This document shows positions 43,733-57,030 of a stretch of DNA of 64,000 bases, piece after piece. The stretch is from an uncultured Ectothiorhodospiraceae bacterium. GTDB lineage: Bacteria; Pseudomonadota; Gammaproteobacteria; Nevskiales; Oceanococcaceae. How positions within the stretch are numbered: position 1 is the first letter of the stretch; every line of letters starts with the position of its first letter. Position numbers and translations under genes: made by a program. The stretch lies in assembly GCA_937141935.1 (NCBI GenBank), contig CAKZQS010000019.1, forward strand, positions 1 through 64,000. The letters are read 5' to 3'. A model generated the notes under the pieces. It was not told the DNA's origin. It worked only from the letters and a program-made list of their open reading frames with translations, and made no database searches.

Positions 43733-44152
43733 CTATCGCTCCTGCGTCGCGGCGCGGTCGGGGGACGCGGGCTGGGGGGCTTGCGTGGCCACGGCGGCCG
43801 CGTGGGCCTGCTGCCACAGCTCGCGGGCCAGCACCGCGCAATATCTCTTCACTGGAGGCAGATGCAGACCCTTCAAGGCCTGCTCCAGTTCCACCTCGCT
43901 CGCCGGGCCCGCTTCGCAAACCGGGCCGGCGGCACACAGCGCCTCCAGCGCCGCCACCAGCCAGGGGCTGGCCAACGCGCGCCACTGCCAGCGGCCGTCG
44001 AGCGCATACAGGCAGGCCCATTCGGCCGAGGCGGGCGTGCGCGCCTGCGCCAGCAGGGTCGCCTCGCCCCGCCGCCCGGCGGGCAGCAGCGCCCTGGGCG
44101 CGCCGAAGGCAGCGGCCACCGACGCCGGATAATCGCCGGCCAGCGCGCTCAT
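43733..44152 (-). CDS. Degenerate IscU/NifU-like scaffold protein
   Basis: A 139-residue protein whose residues 98-112 (LPPVKRYCAVLAREL) match the C-terminal IscU signature LPPVKIHCSILAEDA, with C105 at the third ligand position. Residues 59-72 (ALASPWLVAALEAL) resemble the IscU AIASSSLVTEWV helix. The first two ligand regions, normally around PACGDVMK and YGCGSAIASS, lack cysteine, so this cannot bind a cluster in the usual way. C47, C73 and C79 lie elsewhere. A disordered tail of 20 residues follows. It sits between a desulfurase (ATGA overlap) and the A-type carrier, exactly where iscU belongs. It may be a desulfurase partner or sulfur acceptor rather than a scaffold. Confidence 0.6.
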   Translation of the reverse strand: MSALAGDYPASVAAAFGAPRALLPAGRRGEATLLAQARTPASAEWACLYALDGRWQWRALASPWLVAALEALCAAGPVCEAGPASEVELEQALKGLHLPPVKRYCAVLARELWQQAHAAAVATQAPQPASPDRAATQER

Positions 44153-45303
44153 GCGGCCTCCGGGTGCATCGCCCGCAGGCGTTGCACGGCCGCAAGCAGC
44201 ATCGCGGCGGCCTCGTCGATGTCCCGCGCCGTGGTCGTATGGCCGAACGACAGCCGCAGCGAGGCATCGGCCTGCGCATCATCATGGCCCAGCGCGCGCA
44301 GCACGTAGCTGCTTTCGGCCTGGGCGGCCGAGCAGGCGCTGCCGCTGGAGGCCGCCAGCGCCGGCAGGCTGGCGCGCAGCGCCTCGCCCTGCACGCCGGG
44401 CACGGAGACGCTGAGCACATGCGCGCTGGTGGCCGCGGCGGCGCCGTTGCGGATCAAATCCGGCAGCTGCGCGCTGAGCCGCTGCCACAGGGCCTCACGC
44501 ATCGTACCCAGGCGCTGCTGCTCGGCCTGCCGCGCCGCCTCGGCGGCCTTCGCCGCGGCGACGAAGGCCTCGATCATGGGCACCGCCAGCGTGCCCGAGC
44601 GCAGGCCGCGCTCCTGGCCGCCGCCAAACTGCAGCGGCTCGATACCCACGCGCGGCCGGCTGCGCAGGTACAGCGCACCCACGCCCACCGGGGCGCCGAA
44701 TTTGTGCCCGGAGAAGGCCATGCTGCCGATGCCCTCGCCGACCCGCACCGGCACCTTGCCCAGGGCCTGCGCCGCATCGACATGCAAGGGCACGCCGCGG
44801 CCGGCCAGCGCCGCGCCGATCGCCGCCACGTCCTGGATGTGGCCGGTTTCGTTGTTCACCTGCATGGCGCAGGCGAGCACGGTGTCCGCCCCACAGGCAT
44901 CGGCAAAGGCCTGCGCATCCACCACGCCGGCGGGCCCCGGGTCGAGCCAGTCCACGCGCCAGCCCTGCCCGGCGAGGTGCCGCACCGGGTCGATAACGGC
45001 CTTGTGCTCGGTGCGCGGCAGCAGCAGGCGCCGGCCCTGCTCCTGCGCGAAGCGCGCCCGGCCGAGCACCGCGAGGTTGTCGGCTTCGGTGGCGCCCGAG
45101 GTGAAGACGATCTCGGCCGGGTCGGCGCCGATCAACGCGGCGAAGTCGGCCCGCGCCCGGGCGACACGGCCGGCCTGCTCACGGCCCGCCGCGTGCGCGG
45201 AGGCCGGGTTCGCATGCACCGCATCGGGCTCCAGCGCCGCCGCCAGCACGGCGCGGGCCTCGGGCCGCAGTGGCGTGGTGGCCGCGTGATCCAGGTAAAT
45301 CAT
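44149..45303 (-). CDS. Cysteine desulfurase, IscS/NifS group I (second of tandem pair)
   Basis: PLP enzyme that mobilises sulfur from cysteine. It has 384 residues and begins [14 protein letters not shown]. The PLP lysine is in SGHKFGAPVG. The active-site cysteine sits in the loop SSGSACSAAQAESSYVL, the long flexible loop of group I enzymes, and NNETGHIQD is typical. It overlaps its paralogue and the IscU-like gene by four bases each. It is the likelier IscS counterpart by position. Whether it works with the degenerate scaffold or in tRNA thiolation is unknown. Confidence 0.88.
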   Translation of the reverse strand: MIYLDHAATTPLRPEARAVLAAALEPDAVHANPASAHAAGREQAGRVARARADFAALIGADPAEIVFTSGATEADNLAVLGRARFAQEQGRRLLLPRTEHKAVIDPVRHLAGQGWRVDWLDPGPAGVVDAQAFADACGADTVLACAMQVNNETGHIQDVAAIGAALAGRGVPLHVDAAQALGKVPVRVGEGIGSMAFSGHKFGAPVGVGALYLRSRPRVGIEPLQFGGGQERGLRSGTLAVPMIEAFVAAAKAAEAARQAEQQRLGTMREALWQRLSAQLPDLIRNGAAAATSAHVLSVSVPGVQGEALRASLPALAASSGSACSAAQAESSYVLRALGHDDAQADASLRLSFGHTTTARDIDEAAAMLLAAVQRLRAMHPEAA

Positions 45304-46433
45304 CCGTTCAGCAGCCCGGCAAAGCGGCCGCCGCCCGCCGCCTCGCGGGCCAGCTCCTGCAAGGCCGCAAGCAGGGCCTGCAGGTCGGCCTCGCGGCTGT
45401 CATGGCCCAGGCTCATGCGCACGGCGCCCAGCGCCCGGGGCGTGGGGACGCCCATGGCCGCGAGCACATGCGAGGGCGTGTCGCTGCCGCTGTGGCAGGC
45501 GCTGCCGCTGGCCAGTGCAAAACCGCGCTTGTCCAGCGCGATCAGCAAGGCCTCGGAGTGCCAGCCGGGCAGCGCGAAAAAGCTGGTGTTCGGCAGCCGG
45601 GGCGCCTGGGCGCCGAAGACTTCGCTGCCGGGGATGCTGGCCAGCAGCTGGGCCTCGAACTCCTCGCGCCAGCGGCGCAGCCTGGCGCCCTCATCCGCCA
45701 AGACCTCGCCGGCCGCGGCACAGGCGGCGCCAAAGCCGACGATGCCCGGCACATTCAGCGTGCCGGCGCGCAGGCCGCGCTCGTGGCTGCCGCCGCGCTG
45801 GCCGCGCTCGATGGCATGGCCGCCGCGCAACAGCAGCGCGCCGACCCCCTTGGGACCGCCGAGCTTGTGCGCCGAGCAGCTCAGGGCCACGAGGCCGCTC
45901 GCGGCAAAATCCATGGACAGCCGGCCCACGGCCTGGGTGGCATCGCTGTGCAGCCACCAGCCCGCGGCCGCCGCCGCGGCGGCGATGGCCGGCATGTCCT
46001 GCAGCACCCCGGTTTCGTTATTAGCCCACATCAGGCTCAGCAGGCCGGCCTCGCCCTGCGCCGCCAGGGTCTCCGGCAAGGCGGCCGGGTCGATCAGGCC
46101 CTGCCTGTCCACCGCCAGCCGCCGCGCCTGGGGCAGCGCCTGCAGCACGGCATCGTGCTCGCTGGCGCCGACGCAGCGCGGCGCGCCCGGCCGTAAGCCT
46201 TGCAAGGCCCAGTTGATCGATTCGGTGGCCCCGGAGGTGAACAGCACCTCGCCGGGCTGCGCACCCAGAAGCGCCGCCACCTGTTCGCGCGCCTGCTCGA
46301 CCGCCTGCCGGGCCAGGCGGCCGGCCCGGTGCACGCTGTTGGCGTTGCCGGGGTGCTCCTCGAACCAGGGCCGCATGGCCGCAAACACGCCGGGGCGCAG
46401 CGGCGCCGTGGCGTTGTGGTCGAGGTAGATCAT
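45300..46433 (-). CDS. Cysteine desulfurase, IscS/NifS group I (first of tandem pair)
   Basis: A 377-residue paralogue of the next gene, from ATG 46433 ([16 protein letters not shown]). The PLP lysine is in [10 protein letters not shown], the active cysteine in [17 protein letters not shown] and the group [10 protein letters not shown] is present. The two share about the same layout but differ clearly in sequence, so this is not a recent duplication. It shares ATGA with the cysE stop, coupling cysteine synthesis to sulfur release. It occupies the position held by iscR/iscS in Pseudomonas. The longer upstream open frame is inside cysE. Confidence 0.85.
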
Positions 46434-50386: not shown

Positions 50387-51868
50387 ATGCGCAAGCTTGC
50401 GCTGCTGCTGTGTGGCCTGGCCACGACGGCCACCGCCGTGCCCGAGGGCCCGGAACCCAATACCCCGGACTGGTTTGCCCGCGAGGCCGCCAATTACGCC
50501 AAGACGCAGGAGGCGCTGCTGGAACAGCTGCGCCCCAGCTTCCAGCAGCGGCTGCAGAGCCAGAGCCTGGCCAACGAGCAGGCCTGGCTGGAGCGCGCCA
50601 TCGCCGACCCCAGCTGGCTCGACCCGCGCAGCGGCAATACCAATTTCACGCCGCTGTGCACCAGCTGGATGGAGCAGTGCGCCGGCGACCCCTTCCGCTA
50701 CCCCGGCGTGGACCCCTTCTACGACACCGAAGGCCGGGTGACGCCGGTGCTGTTTTACGACGCCGCCTGCGCCCGCATCTCGGGCCGGGTCTGGGCGCCG
50801 CTGGACAGCACCCCTGGAGCTCGGCTGCCGGCCGTGGTCATCGAGACCGGCTCGGTGCAGGCGCCCGAGCCGCTGTACTGGTGGATGGCCCAGGCGCTGG
50901 TGCGCGCCGGCTACGTGACGATGACCTTCGACGTGCGCGGCCAGGGCCGCTCGGACTTCCAGGCGCCGGACGGCAGCCAGGGCGGCAATGCCAATTCGGT
51001 GGTGTTCTGGGAGGGCCTGGTCGATGCCATCGACTTCTTCCGCTCCACGCCCGGCCAGCCCTACCCACATAACGAGCACTGCGCCGACACCTACCCCACG
51101 GCCACGACGCCCCATAACCCCGAGCACGGGGTCATCGACCCCGGCCGCCTGGGTTTGGCCGGCCACTCGCTGGGGGCGACCGGCGTATCGCGCGTGCAGG
51201 AATATGGCGCCGAGGGCGCCGAGGCCTGGCCGGGGCTGATGGATGCGCAGAACCCGGTCGATGTCATCGTCGCCTGGGATTCGCTGTCCTCGGCGGTCGT
51301 GCCGCGCGTGCCGGCCATGGGCCACACCTCGGAGTACGGCCTGACGCCGGTGCCCAAGCAGAGCCCGCCGGACCCGGAGGGGCACAAGGCCGCCTATGCG
51401 CGCTGGGTGGAGGCCGGGCTGCCGGTGTACCAGATCACCCCGCAGGGCTCGACCCACTACGAGTGGTCGCTGATCCCCACCTTCCCGACCAGCTCCTGGT
51501 GCCCGGGCGATGACGGCGAGCGCTGCAGCCCGGGCTATGGCCAGCCGCTGGCCGAGCACTACACGCTGGCCTGGTTCGACCGCTGGCTGAAGCAGCCCGG
51601 CGAGCCCGGCCACGACGACGCCGACGCCCGCCTGCTGGCCGATGCCGACTGGGTCGAGCGTTACAGCTTTTACTCGCGCTCGGCGCGGCACTACCCCACG
51701 CGCGCGGGCGCGCTGGTGCACTGCGAGGACATTCGCGCCGGCTGCGACGACGGCCGTGCGCTGACCCGTAGCGGGGGCGGCGCCTGGGGCCCCCTCGCGC
51801 TGTTGCTGGGCCTGCTCGCGGCCGGCCTGCGCCGGGGTCCGCGGCACCGCGGACACCCGACCCGGTGA
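50387..51868 (+). CDS. Secreted alpha/beta hydrolase with GlyGly-CTERM-like tail
   Basis: A 493-residue exported hydrolase from ATG 50387. The signal peptide is MRKLALLLCGLATTATA (residues 1-17). The alpha/beta hydrolase core has TMTFDVRGQGRS, the nucleophile elbow GLAGHSLGATG and a likely C-terminal catalytic histidine in QGSTHYEW. Several cysteines could form disulfides. The end reads SGGG followed by a hydrophobic stretch (WGPLALLLGLLAAGL) and RR, the layout of a GlyGly-CTERM sorting signal cut by rhombosortase. The final 12 basic residues are longer than usual. The substrate may be a lipid or hydrophobic ester. It overlaps the RND gene as GTGA. Confidence 0.82.
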   Translation: MRKLALLLCGLATTATAVPEGPEPNTPDWFAREAANYAKTQEALLEQLRPSFQQRLQSQSLANEQAWLERAIADPSWLDPRSGNTNFTPLCTSWMEQCAGDPFRYPGVDPFYDTEGRVTPVLFYDAACARISGRVWAPLDSTPGARLPAVVIETGSVQAPEPLYWWMAQALVRAGYVTMTFDVRGQGRSDFQAPDGSQGGNANSVVFWEGLVDAIDFFRSTPGQPYPHNEHCADTYPTATTPHNPEHGVIDPGRLGLAGHSLGATGVSRVQEYGAEGAEAWPGLMDAQNPVDVIVAWDSLSSAVVPRVPAMGHTSEYGLTPVPKQSPPDPEGHKAAYARWVEAGLPVYQITPQGSTHYEWSLIPTFPTSSWCPGDDGERCSPGYGQPLAEHYTLAWFDRWLKQPGEPGHDDADARLLADADWVERYSFYSRSARHYPTRAGALVHCEDIRAGCDDGRALTRSGGGAWGPLALLLGLLAAGLRRGPRHRGHPTR

Positions 51869-54258
51869 GCTGGCGCTGGCCGACCGCAGCCGATGTGCTG
51901 CGGGTCGTCGAACCGCGCCTGTTCGGCCATCGCCGCGCGGGGCTGGCGATCCTGCTGGCGCTGACGGCCTTCTTCGGCTGGCATGCGCTGCAGGTGGAGC
52001 TGGACGCGGGCTTTGACAAGCAGATCCCGCTCGAACACCCCTACATGCAGACCTTTGTCGAGCATCGCGAGGCCTTTGGCGGCGCCAACCTGATCTCGGT
52101 GGCGCTGATGCAGCGCGAGGGGGATATCTACAACGAGGCCTTCCTGGACAAGCTGGACCGGCTGACCGAGGCCGTGTTCTTCCTTCCCGGCGTCGACCGC
52201 TCGCGGGTCAGCTCGCTGTTCACGCCCGGCGTGCGCTACATCGAGATCACCGAGGACGGCATTGCCAGCGGCGACGTGGTGCCACGCAACTATGCGCCCA
52301 GCCCGGAGATGTTCACGCGTATTCGCGCCAACGTGGGCAAGGCCGGCATCGTTGGCCGGCTGGTGGCCGAGAACCACGGCGGGGCCATGGTGGTGGCCGA
52401 GTTGCTCGAACACGACCCGACCACCGGCGAGAAACTGGACTATCGCGAAGTCGAGGACCGGCTGGAACAGATCCGGGCGCAGTTCGAGGATGCGCAGACC
52501 CGGGTGCACATCATCGGTTTTGCGATGGTGGTGGGCAAAGTCGCCGACGCGGCCACAGAGGTCGTGGCCTTTTTTGCGCTGGCCCTCGCACTCACGGCCC
52601 TGCTGCTGCGGGTCTATTGCGCCTCCTGGCGGCTCAGCCTGCTGCCGCTGCTGTGCGCGCTGGTTGCCGTGGTCTGGGAGTTTGGGCTGTTGCGGCTGGC
52701 CGGCTTTGGCCTCGACCCCTTCGCGATCCTGGTGCCCTTCCTGGTGCTGGCCAATGGCGTCGAACACGGCATCCAGATGGTCAACGCCTGGGCCGACGAG
52801 GTCACCGCCGAAGGCAAGGATGCCTACAACGCGGCCATCGGCTCCTTCCGCCGGGTCGCGATTCCCGGCACGGCGGCGCTGGTCACCGATGTCATCGGCT
52901 TTGCCACCATCGCGCTGATCAACATCCAGATCATTCAGGAAATGGCCATCAACGCCGCCTTCGGCATGGCCGCGATCATCGTCACCAACAAGTGGCTGAT
53001 GCCGATCCTGCTGTCCTGGCTGCACCTGCCCGACCGCCAGCGCTACGCCGCCAAGCTCGCCTGGCGCGAGGAGGTCGGCGACAAGGCCTGGGTGGTGCTG
53101 GCGCGGGCCACGGGGCCGCGCGCGGCACCGCTGCTGCTGCTGGGCGGCGCCGTGCTGTTTGGCCTGGCGCTGTACAAGGGCCAGGATCTGCGCATCGGCG
53201 ACTTTCACGAGGGCGTGCCCGAACTGCGCCCGGACTCGCGCTACAACCGCGACAGCGCCGCCATCGTCGACAACTTTGCCATCGGCGTGGATGTGCTCAA
53301 GGTGTTCATCGAGGCGCCGCCGCAGGCCTGCACGCAAAGCGCGGTGCTGCACACGATGGACCGGCTGGCCTGGCATTTGCGCAACACCCCCGGGGTCGAT
53401 TCGGTGCTGGCCCTGCCCCGCCTGGCCAAGGCCATCCGCGTCGGCTGGAACGAGGGCAGCCCGCTGTGGTACGCGCTGCCGCGCAACCGCTACGCGCTGG
53501 TGCAGACCATCTCGCCGATCCCGAGCTCCGCCGGGCTGCAGAACCCGGATTGCTCGGTGATGCCGATGCTGGTTTTTACCACCGACCACCGCGCCGAAAC
53601 CATCGACGCGATCACCCGCACCGTCGAGGACTTTCGCGCGCTCTACGCCGCCGAGCAGGCGGAGCAAGGCGTGGCCGAGCCGCCGCTGAATATCGCGCTG
53701 GCCGGCGGCAATGTGGGCGTGATGGCGGCCACCAATGCGGTGATCCGCGCCGAAGAAAAGCCGGTGCTGCTGTGGGTTTACGCCGCCGTGGGCCTGATGT
53801 GCTGGCTGTCCTTTCGCAGCATCGGCTCGCTGGCCTGCGTAATGACGCCACTGGCCATCGTCTCATTTGCCGCCTATGCGCTGATGGCTTGGCTCGAAAT
53901 CGGCCTCAAGGTCGCCACCTTGCCGGTGACCGCGCTGGCCGTGGGCATCGGCATCGACTTCGGCATCTATTCCTATTCGGTGCTCGAAGGACACCTGCGT
54001 GCGGGGCTGGCCTTGCCCCAGGCCTGGCTGCGCACGCTGCAACAAACCGGCAAGGCGGTGGTCTTCACCGGACTGGCGCTGTCGGCGGGAGTCGTGACAT
54101 GGATGTTGTCGGATTTGCAGTTTCAGCGCGACATGGGCGTGCTGCTGACCTTTATGTTCCTGGCCAACATGCTGGGGGCCATCCTGCTGCTGCCGGCGCT
54201 GGCCCGCTACGTGCTGCGCCACGAGCCGGCGCGCCGCGCTGCCGAAGCGGCGCCCTGA
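51865..54258 (+). CDS. RND/MMPL-family transporter
   Basis: Inner-membrane exporter or lipid transporter of the hydrophobe/MMPL branch of the RND superfamily. It has 797 residues from GTG 51865, with about 12 TM helices in two repeats. TM1 is followed by a large periplasmic loop (about 40-220), then five helices including PFLVLANGVEHGIQMVNAW, a second periplasmic loop (about 440-620) and six helices including TALAVGIGIDFGIYSYSVLEG, with the charged pair typical of proton coupling. Two Cys occur in loop 2. It is coupled by overlap to the hydrolase (GTGA) and to DUF1329 (TGATG). Members often pair with DUF1302/DUF1329 genes. No DUF1302 gene is here. Confidence 0.88.
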   Translation: MSWRWPTAADVLRVVEPRLFGHRRAGLAILLALTAFFGWHALQVELDAGFDKQIPLEHPYMQTFVEHREAFGGANLISVALMQREGDIYNEAFLDKLDRLTEAVFFLPGVDRSRVSSLFTPGVRYIEITEDGIASGDVVPRNYAPSPEMFTRIRANVGKAGIVGRLVAENHGGAMVVAELLEHDPTTGEKLDYREVEDRLEQIRAQFEDAQTRVHIIGFAMVVGKVADAATEVVAFFALALALTALLLRVYCASWRLSLLPLLCALVAVVWEFGLLRLAGFGLDPFAILVPFLVLANGVEHGIQMVNAWADEVTAEGKDAYNAAIGSFRRVAIPGTAALVTDVIGFATIALINIQIIQEMAINAAFGMAAIIVTNKWLMPILLSWLHLPDRQRYAAKLAWREEVGDKAWVVLARATGPRAAPLLLLGGAVLFGLALYKGQDLRIGDFHEGVPELRPDSRYNRDSAAIVDNFAIGVDVLKVFIEAPPQACTQSAVLHTMDRLAWHLRNTPGVDSVLALPRLAKAIRVGWNEGSPLWYALPRNRYALVQTISPIPSSAGLQNPDCSVMPMLVFTTDHRAETIDAITRTVEDFRALYAAEQAEQGVAEPPLNIALAGGNVGVMAATNAVIRAEEKPVLLWVYAAVGLMCWLSFRSIGSLACVMTPLAIVSFAAYALMAWLEIGLKVATLPVTALAVGIGIDFGIYSYSVLEGHLRAGLALPQAWLRTLQQTGKAVVFTGLALSAGVVTWMLSDLQFQRDMGVLLTFMFLANMLGAILLLPALARYVLRHEPARRAAEAAP

Positions 54259-55628
54259 TGGCGGCAGCCCCGTGCTTTGCGCGGCGCGCGGCCGGGCTGG
54301 CGCGCCGCGGGCTTCTGCCCATCGCCCTGGCCATCGCCGCCGGCCCGGCCGGGGCCGCCGTGGAGGCCGAGCAGGCCGCGCAGCTGGGCGACACGCTGAC
54401 GCCGATTGGCGCCGAGCAGGCCGGCAACGGCGCCGACATCCCGCCCTGGGAGGGCGGGCTGTCCAAGACCCAGATGGAGCGCGGCGACAACCCCTACGCC
54501 GAGGACGAGCCGCTGTACGTGGTGACCGCCAAAAACATGGACCAATACGGCGAGCTGCTCAGCGAGGGGCACAAGGCGCTGCTGCAGACCTTTCCCGAGA
54601 CCTACCGCATGCCGGTGTATCCGACCCGGCGCAGCGCGGGCTTTCCCGAATACATCTACGCCGCCACCAAAAAGAACGCGACCTCCGTGGAATTGCGCAA
54701 CGAGGGCCATGGCTTTTGCTGCACCGCGCAAGGCTTTCCCTTCCCCATTCCGCAAAACGGACTGGAGGTGATGTGGAATCACATCATGCGTTACAACACC
54801 AAGGGTTATCGCGGCTTTTTAAACCATGCTGTCACCACGCCGGATGGCGATTATGTGGTGGAGCGCAGTTATCTGGAGCTGTCCTACCACTACAACCACC
54901 CGGAAACGACGCTGCAAACCCTGGACAACCAGAACCTGTGGCTGATGAGCAAAGTGGTGGCGCCGGCCAACAAGGCCGGGGACAACAACCTGGTGCATGT
55001 GCCCATTGACCGCATGCGCGAGGAAACCAAGGTCTGGGTCTTCAACCCGGGCCTCGGCCGCACCCGCCGCATTGGCGACGTGGGCTATGACAATCCCCTG
55101 TTCGACGGCCTGATGACCCACGACCAGCTGGATATGTTCAACGGCCCGCTGGACCGCTACACGGTCAAGTTGATTGGCAAGCGCGAGATGCTGGTGCCCT
55201 ATAACGCCAACAGGCTCTACAGCCCCGAGCACCGTTACGAGGACATCATCACCCGCGGCCATATCAACCAGGATCTGACCCGTTACGAGAAGCACCGCGT
55301 CTGGGTCATCGACACCGAGGTTCGCGAGGGCTATGCGCATATCTACAAGCGCCGGCGCTTCTACCTCGACGAAGACTCCTGGCTGGTGATGATGCAGGAC
55401 ATCTACGACGAGCACGATGCCTTCTGGCGCACCTCGGAAGCGCACGCCGTGATGTTTCGCAACGTGCCACTGATCGTCAACGGCGTGCAGGTGCATTACG
55501 ACCTGCAGTCGCGGCGTTACGTCATCGTCAACCTCACCAATGAGGAAGACGAAATGATCGACTACGACTGGTACGAGCCCAAGCGCCACTACACACCGCG
55601 CGAGCTGCCCAAGTTCGCTTTCCGCTAA
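54258..55628 (+). CDS. DUF1329 family periplasmic/outer-membrane-associated protein
   Basis: A 456-residue exported protein. The signal peptide covers about residues 1-34 (two arginines, LLPIALAIAAGPAGA, then AVEA). The mature part has DUF1329 features: ALLQTFPETYRMPVYPTRRS, an aromatic-rich beta sheet, VWVFNPGLGRTRRIGDVGYD and YKRRRFYLDEDSWLVMMQDI. The family is predicted to have a LolA/LolB-like lipid-binding fold and is found beside RND pumps and DUF1302 porins in hydrocarbon- and sterol-using bacteria. It probably passes a hydrophobic molecule across the periplasm for the RND protein. The ATG overlaps the RND stop (TGATG). Confidence 0.85.
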   Translation: MAAAPCFARRAAGLARRGLLPIALAIAAGPAGAAVEAEQAAQLGDTLTPIGAEQAGNGADIPPWEGGLSKTQMERGDNPYAEDEPLYVVTAKNMDQYGELLSEGHKALLQTFPETYRMPVYPTRRSAGFPEYIYAATKKNATSVELRNEGHGFCCTAQGFPFPIPQNGLEVMWNHIMRYNTKGYRGFLNHAVTTPDGDYVVERSYLELSYHYNHPETTLQTLDNQNLWLMSKVVAPANKAGDNNLVHVPIDRMREETKVWVFNPGLGRTRRIGDVGYDNPLFDGLMTHDQLDMFNGPLDRYTVKLIGKREMLVPYNANRLYSPEHRYEDIITRGHINQDLTRYEKHRVWVIDTEVREGYAHIYKRRRFYLDEDSWLVMMQDIYDEHDAFWRTSEAHAVMFRNVPLIVNGVQVHYDLQSRRYVIVNLTNEEDEMIDYDWYEPKRHYTPRELPKFAFR

Positions 55629-55790: not shown

Positions 55791-56105
55791 ATGAGTGTCG
55801 ACATTTCCAAACTTTCGGCGACCGAATTGGAAAAGCTGCGTCAGTCCATTGATTCGACGATCGCCTCGCGCCGGCAGCAGGAGCGCCAGCAGGTGGTTGA
55901 CGAGATTCGCGGCATCCTGGCCAAGAACGGGATGAGCTGGGATGACCTGCCGCGCGGCCGCAGTGGCGCCAAGGGCAGCAAGCTGCCGCCGAAATACCAG
56001 GACCCGAAAGACCCGGGCCGCACCTGGACCGGCCGTGGCCGCAAGCCCAAGTGGGTCGAAGCGCACCTGAAGAAAGGCGGCAAGATCGAGGACCTGGAAA
56101 TCTAG
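55791..56105 (+). CDS. H-NS-family nucleoid-associated protein
   Basis: A DNA-bridging xenogeneic silencer of 104 residues from ATG 55791 (MSVDISKLSATELEKLRQSI). The N-terminal 50 residues form the coiled-coil oligomerisation domain. A flexible linker rich in Gly/Lys follows. The C-terminal DNA-binding domain has YQDPKDPGRTWTGRGRKPKW, where the RGR core inserts into the minor groove of AT-rich DNA. It resembles the short Bv3F/XrvA type. In a genome this GC-rich it would target acquired AT-rich DNA and its own AT-rich promoter. It is monocistronic with a strong terminator. Confidence 0.93.
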   Translation: MSVDISKLSATELEKLRQSIDSTIASRRQQERQQVVDEIRGILAKNGMSWDDLPRGRSGAKGSKLPPKYQDPKDPGRTWTGRGRKPKWVEAHLKKGGKIEDLEI

Positions 56106-56196: not shown

Positions 56197-56355
56197 CCAA
56201 TCACCCCGCCGCCCATCACCGCATCGCCCATCACCCCATCGTCCATCACCCGGTCCGCATGAACCCAGCGGCATCAACCCGCCGGCATTACCGCGCCGGA
56301 ATCAACGCCCCGGCATCAACGCGCCGGAATCAACGCCCCGGCATCAACCCAGCGG
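56197..56355. repeat. Degenerate tandem repeat array (15-base then 14-base units)
   Basis: Four 15-base units starting CCAATCACC/CCCATCACC (56197-56256) pass through one intermediate unit into six 14-base units (56272-56355) with consensus near CATCAACGCGCCGG. Two copies of AATCAACGCCCCGG are identical (56300 and 56328). The array lies between the H-NS terminator and orn, and its last unit covers the orn stop codon. It is a candidate variable-number repeat. No coding or RNA function is evident. Confidence 0.8.
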
Positions 56356-56910
56356 CGATCCGCGCCAGGCTTCGGCGAAGAGGTGGCGCCGGTAGTGACG
56401 CAACTCGGCGATGGATTCGCGAACGTCATCCAGCGCGAGGTGGGTGCCCTCCTTGTCGATGCTCTCCAGCACCGCCGGGGCCCAGCGCCGGGCCAGCTCC
56501 TTGAGGGTGCTGACGTCCACGTTGCGATAATGGAAAAAGGCCGCGAGCTGCGGCATGTACGCCAGCAGAAAGCGCCGATCCAGGCCAATGGAATTGCCGC
56601 ACATCGGGGAGACCCCGGGCTCGACATAGCGCTGCAAAAAGGCCAGCGTCTGCTGCTCGGCCTGGGCGCAATCGATATCGCTGTCGCGCACCCGCTGCGT
56701 CAGCCCCGATTCCCCATGCGTGCGCGTGCACCATTCGTCCATCGCGGCCAGCGCGGCCTCCGGCTGATGCACGGCCAGGTTGGGCCCCTCGGCCAGGATA
56801 TTCAGTTCCGCATCGGTGACGATCGTGGCGATCTCGATAATGCGGTTCTGCGCGGGATCCAGGCCGGTCATCTCCAGATCCAGCCAGATGAGGTTCGTTG
56901 GGTGCTTCAT
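56344..56910 (-). CDS. orn: Oligoribonuclease
   Basis: 3'-5' exonuclease of the DEDDh family that degrades RNA dinucleotides, including pGpG from c-di-GMP turnover. From ATG 56910 ([19 protein letters not shown]) it has 188 residues; ATG 56919 would add three. Catalytic residues lie in LDLEMTG, in [11 protein letters not shown] and in the C-terminal [14 protein letters not shown]. The C-terminal SPLG and the stop are encoded by the last unit of the tandem array, so length may vary between strains. Confidence 0.97.
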
Positions 56911-57030
56911 GCGGGGCATGTTACCGTCGCCGCGGCGCCTACGCGCCCACCGGCCGGGCGTCGCCGAGCCCGGCCCCCGCATGAGCACGACCGCTGCATC
57001 ACGACGGCAGCCACGGAGTCAGGAGCAGAC

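Follow-up and report, generated by a model that had tools for sequence, protein, structure and literature searches.

A predicted surface esterase gene overlapping an RND-DUF1329 pair: a probable single-lineage neighbourhood of two kinds of module

Do three genes that overlap end to start, encoding an exported alpha/beta hydrolase, an RND transporter and a DUF1329 protein, form a conserved joint pathway? The three lie consecutively on the plus strand of the window, by which we mean the whole 64,000-nucleotide stretch of DNA analyzed here, from an uncultured Ectothiorhodospiraceae bacterium, and an earlier note had read them as one functional unit in which the hydrolase takes the place of DUF1302. 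The coordinates and the GTGA and TGATG overlaps reported there proved exact when the open reading frames were checked (Table 1). The hydrolase is 73% identical over 470 residues to that of a congeneric genome (G001), and the RND and DUF1329 proteins share 57-60% and 60-67% identity, respectively, with their nearest relatives. This identity, together with the lack of internal stops in any of the three, indicates that these are real genes. The GTG start of the RND gene fits the alignment, as homologues start within a few residues of it and use of the next in-frame start would lose aligned residues.

Table 1. Features of the three-gene site and its flanks, with positions in the window
Feature	Coordinates	Strand	Remarks
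Small conserved protein, 115 aa	49958..50305	-	No Pfam match; left flank of the variable site; common to loci L148, L165 and L186
Exported alpha/beta hydrolase, 493 aa	50387..51868	+	Cutinase/PETase-like predicted fold; Ser261/Asp298/His357; N-terminal export signal; GlyGly-CTERM-like tail
Gly-rich motif, hydrophobic stretch and basic cluster at hydrolase C terminus	51770..51865	+	GlyGly-CTERM-like sorting tail
GTGA overlap, hydrolase stop/RND start	51865..51868	+	Hydrolase TGA at 51866-51868, RND GTG at 51865; junction in no other genome searched
RND transporter (MMPL/HAE3-related), 797 aa	51865..54258	+	Asp698 invariant; residue 300 Ser to Glu in conserved first-half motif
TGATG overlap, RND stop/DUF1329 start	54256..54260	+	RND TGA at 54256-54258, DUF1329 ATG at 54258; gene order RND then DUF1329 kept in at least 27 other genomes
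DUF1329 periplasmic LolA-like protein, 456 aa	54258..55628	+	N-terminal signal; profile match
H-NS family protein	55791..56105	+	Right flank of the variable site; common to the congener (G001) and a genome of the sister genus (G002)
Exonuclease family protein, oligoribonuclease-like (orn)	56344..56919	-	Synteny anchor common to RND-DUF1329 loci of other families

A scan for promoters and terminators revealed no promoter-like site 5' of the hydrolase gene, and terminator-like matches only within genes or on the opposite strand; a hairpin 3' of the DUF1329 gene scored no better than shuffled sequences (z -1.17). The earlier claim that the genes are made together was narrowed to the source species, in which the overlaps make coupled expression plausible and the trio is probably co-transcribed. 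Elsewhere in the window, two different cysteine-desulfurase-like genes stand in tandem with a 4-base overlap (44149-46433), and both are also found in the congener at 65% and 69% identity.

No named family claimed the hydrolase above its cut-off. Only sub-threshold alpha/beta-hydrolase matches were obtained, PETase first, and the score against PF12740 (18.2) lay below the gathering score of 28. An AlphaFold2 model was built from 22 sequences (pLDDT 74.6), and its top Foldseek matches in the PDB were cutinases and PETases (8ait, E 6.8e-12, target TM 0.72, 15% identity). Ser261, located in a GHSLG motif, Asp298 at a strand end, and His357 are invariant in 22 homologues, and by motif and position would constitute the catalytic triad. 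The protein is most likely a secreted serine esterase of the cutinase/PETase-like kind, with hydrolysis of an ester or polyester predicted from the modeled fold, in agreement with the earlier assignment to the ester hydrolases. It resembles the known polyester hydrolases (PF12740-like; PDB 8ait, 8ais, and 7vmd) in predicted fold, in the GxSxG serine, and in the fitting placement of Asp and His, but shares only about 15% identity with them and adds an N-terminal helical region, conserved cysteines, and a sorting tail.

That tail, SGGGAWGPLALLLGLLAAGLRRGPRHR, has the Gly-rich motif, hydrophobic segment, and basic cluster of GlyGly-CTERM/rhombosortase surface proteins (PMC3237569, PMC6219818), and a rhombosortase is encoded in the source genome (C18; 136.6 bits versus a cut-off of 84). 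The window tail scores under the TIGR03501 cut-off (12.3 versus 15.5), whereas the tails of the hydrolases of the congener (21.7) and of G067 (21.9) score above it. Homologues without the tail often have an N-terminal lipobox, as found in Paraperlucidibaca, Perlucidibaca, Solimonas aquatica, and the source genome's own paralogue on C46. Because relatives carry either the tail or a lipobox, anchoring at the surface or outer membrane is supported, and the window hydrolase is probably anchored at the surface via its tail. The export and probable surface sorting proposed earlier are supported by the export signal, the GlyGly-CTERM layout, and the orthologue tails that pass the model. Across the family (L022-L045 and L086-L113) a GlyGly-CTERM-like tail or an N-terminal lipobox was seen, rarely both and in some members neither, an apparent swap of anchors. 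The mutual exclusivity of lipobox and tail gave p 0.016, using simple patterns that miss some lipoboxes visible by eye and ignoring relatedness. With the same kind of pattern classification, rhombosortase presence and tail presence were not significantly associated across genomes (p 0.54).

The DUF1329 protein was identified by Pfam with 397.8 bits (cut-off 23.1) and matched LolA_like with 35.8 (cut-off 30). The RND protein matched MMPL in Pfam (52.9 versus a cut-off of 20.5), and its best NCBIfam model was the HAE3 model TIGR00921, at 148 bits against a cut-off of 351.9. A search of solved structures returned weak matches for the RND protein and none for DUF1329, whose structure predicted from the single sequence had a pLDDT of 34. 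Residue 300 of the RND protein (52762-52764) is Glu, within LANGVEHGIQM and adjoining an invariant His. The residue is Ser in every other RND aligned, a comparison that covers 22 full-length proteins and a second, partly overlapping set of 29 loci, reaches down to about 45% identity and takes in the genome's own paralogues. Asp698 in the second-half motif is invariant among the 23 aligned. We take the first-half motif with residue 300 and the second-half motif with Asp698 to be part of the proton relay, and from the alignment a functional shift of the window RND through Glu300 is possible. The window RND sits on a long branch of the RND tree, with weak support for its position (78/94). The long branch and the unique residue change suggest that this RND may have specialised; given its length and weak placement, the branch is no proof for or against descent of the pair at this locus.

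The survey covered 85 genomes of the order that includes Nevskia and Solimonas. The hydrolase was found in 37 of these, and an RND gene directly followed by a DUF1329 gene in at least 28, with one (G057) having a gap of about 0.7 kb; the latter count came from comparing RND and DUF1329 match coordinates by hand among the RND matches listed. Both modules were present in 18 of the 85 genomes, again among the matches listed, and adjacent only in the source genome; in G062 about 110 kb of a single contig separates them. Many of the hydrolase loci were from Solimonas, Nevskia, Stagnimonas, Fontimonas, and Sinimarinibacterium, and at 25 hydrolase loci of other genomes, mostly with 10 kb flanks and a few with shorter ones, no RND or DUF1329 relative was detected at E 1e-5. 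In a Nevskia group (L026, L030, L038-L040, L044) the genes flanking the hydrolase are those of a LuxR-type regulator and an ABC-2 transporter pair. Small genes at the comparison loci are approximate, since these were called with a purpose-written codon-usage caller. A conserved three-gene operon was rejected, there being no second genome with the arrangement among those searched and the congener keeping the hydrolase alone; the three genes as a functional unit, as first proposed, were not supported by this survey of genome neighbourhoods.

The hydrolase extends beyond the order, being found in two further genomes of a class-wide sample. On plasmid pHP-187 of Marinobacter adhaerens (L192), a homologue with 48% identity lies beside CocE/NonD hydrolase and oxidoreductase genes, and no RND transporter or DUF1329 protein is named among the genes annotated within 12 kb of it.

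The site itself has a history that can be read from its flanks. The congener is collinear with the window on both sides, with the cysteine desulfurases, CysE, TrmJ, SuhB, SIR2, the left-flank gene, hydrolase, H-NS, orn, pterin dehydratase and beyond; there the hydrolase is directly followed by H-NS, and neither RND, DUF1329, nor remnants of either were found at the site. A genome of the sister genus (G002) has the left-flank gene, H-NS, and orn together, with neither hydrolase nor pair between them. In a member of another family (G063), locus L148 groups the left-flank gene with RND, DUF1329, orn, and pterin dehydratase, and no hydrolase is among them. The small protein of the left flank occupies the same site in several families. 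The window DUF1329 protein is closest to those of the pair group, at 60-67% identity, as compared to about 52% for its best match in G001-G003. On this synteny, the simplest account would make the pair an old resident of the site and the hydrolase a newcomer in the genus, with G001 and G002 each having lost the pair, but the pair may instead have been gained late. Hydrolase and pair are separable under either history.

The comparisons lead us to consider it probable that a surface esterase and a hydrophobe-transport pair lie side by side as two independent modules, probably on one mRNA and with no conserved joint pathway. The hydrolase would use its N-terminal signal for export, would then probably be cleaved and anchored at the surface via the GlyGly-CTERM tail by the genome's rhombosortase, and in that position would cleave an extracellular or surface ester. 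Its adjacency to the pair would have arisen in the source lineage, the overlap reflecting coupled expression rather than a conserved joint pathway. Several observations run against the two-module reading. The overlap would couple expression in the source species and may be selected, and the window RND, with its long branch and unique residue, may have specialised. The modules co-occur in 18 genomes versus 12.2 expected (p 0.010, among the matches listed and with phylogeny ignored), though without family f6, in which the pair was not found among the matches listed, 14.8 are expected and the excess is not significant (p 0.14). In addition, Solimonas loci (L024, L025, L031) have a wax ester synthase/DGAT gene near the hydrolase, and in G014 such a gene (L145:4682-6088) immediately precedes the RND-DUF1329 pair, a weak hint of an ester-lipid theme common to both modules.

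The place of DUF1302 bears on how the pair might work. Relatives of the pair handle hydrophobic substrates elsewhere, in support of this part of the earlier note's reading. AmeABCD of Castellaniella defragrans is a DUF1302-DUF1329-YCF48-RND system with a pump of the HAE3 lineage, whose deletion lowers monoterpene tolerance (PMC6394551), and PP_0765, PP_0766, PP_2018, and PP_2019 of Pseudomonas putida are required for growth on Tween 20 and are proposed to form a transport system (PMC10866462). The window resembles AmeABCD in encoding an RND, possibly of the HAE3-like lineage, with DUF1329, but is without DUF1302 (AmeA) and the YCF48-like AmeC, has the order RND then DUF1329, and has an esterase gene upstream. 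With the P. putida set it would share DUF1329, RND, and an ester substrate, whereas in that set DUF1329 (PP_0766) pairs with DUF1302 (PP_0765), the RND gene (with PP_2018/PP_2019) lies elsewhere, and no hydrolase is described.

A profile search of the source genome revealed nine DUF1329 matches and five DUF1302 genes, the latter all on other contigs and none in the operon or window. One linked DUF1302-DUF1329-YCF48-RND cassette is present elsewhere in the genome (L176), and YCF48-like cluster members, their identity read from sequence, occur in its other cassettes (L176, L177) and not in the window. The hydrolase as a substitute for DUF1302 was rejected, as at least 27 other genomes have RND followed by DUF1329 without an adjacent hydrolase, and neither DUF1302 nor YCF48 was found when the surroundings of 13 RND-DUF1329 loci were inspected, as far as about 9 kb to either side. 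The DUF1302-less pair is thus an established variant, common in the order, and the hydrolase does not replace DUF1302. The related idea that a DUF1302 partner elsewhere forms the real system found partial support: the linked cassette is there, and two of the DUF1302 genes (L009, L010) have no RND or DUF1329 gene within 1.5 kb.

It is conceivable, if doubtful, that the pair depends on such a DUF1302 barrel encoded elsewhere in its genome and acts as an ordinary AmeABCD-like exporter, with the hydrolase as a passenger. Barrel genes such as L009 and L010 would be available for this role, and the DUF1302-DUF1329 and YCF48-RND pairs of P. putida are likewise unlinked yet have their phenotype in common (PMC10866462); the 13 pair loci without DUF1302 or YCF48 nearby argue against it.

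A similarly tentative reading is that RND and DUF1329 together maintain the envelope by moving a membrane lipid, rather than serving in nutrient transport or efflux. Many relatives have the pair flanked on one side by a psp operon (PspF, PspA, PspC) with a TetR regulator gene and on the other by a response-regulator/histidine-kinase pair next to orn. Across L146-L156 the locus is conserved as pspF/pspA-B-C, TetR, RND, DUF1329, response regulator, histidine kinase, and orn. These psp and two-component neighbours suggest an envelope role for the pair, although the window has no such neighbours and a neighbourhood alone does not show function.

It is unlikely that the surface hydrolase cleaves a hydrophobic ester whose product the pair then moves, in a lineage-specific pathway assembled in the source species. 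The overlapping genes, the predicted esterase fold, the need for RND and DUF1329 relatives in Tween 20 ester use by P. putida (PMC10866462), and the wax-ester-synthase genes near both modules in other genomes are all consistent with it. However, no second genome among those searched has the arrangement, the congener has the hydrolase at the same place without the pair, and in at least 27 genomes the pair stands without a hydrolase next to it. Furthermore, the substrates of HAE3-type pumps are described as passing out of the inner membrane to the periplasm (PMC6394551); the product of the hydrolase, by contrast, would start outside. A pathway common to hydrolase and pair is possible, and conservation gives it no support. 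Slightly less likely still is a new ester-hydrolysis-plus-transport unit, with a surface esterase wired into a DUF1302-less RND-DUF1329 system whose pump is adapting, as Glu300 and the long branch might suggest.

As judged from the genomes compared, the trio brings together two known kinds of module in a single lineage and is not a conserved system, and the tempting three-part machine is removed as unsupported. Two leads take its place. One is an RND-DUF1329 pair that is conserved in the absence of DUF1302 and often neighbours the psp envelope-stress operon; the other is a cutinase-like esterase family whose apparent anchor is either a GlyGly-CTERM tail or a lipoprotein signal.
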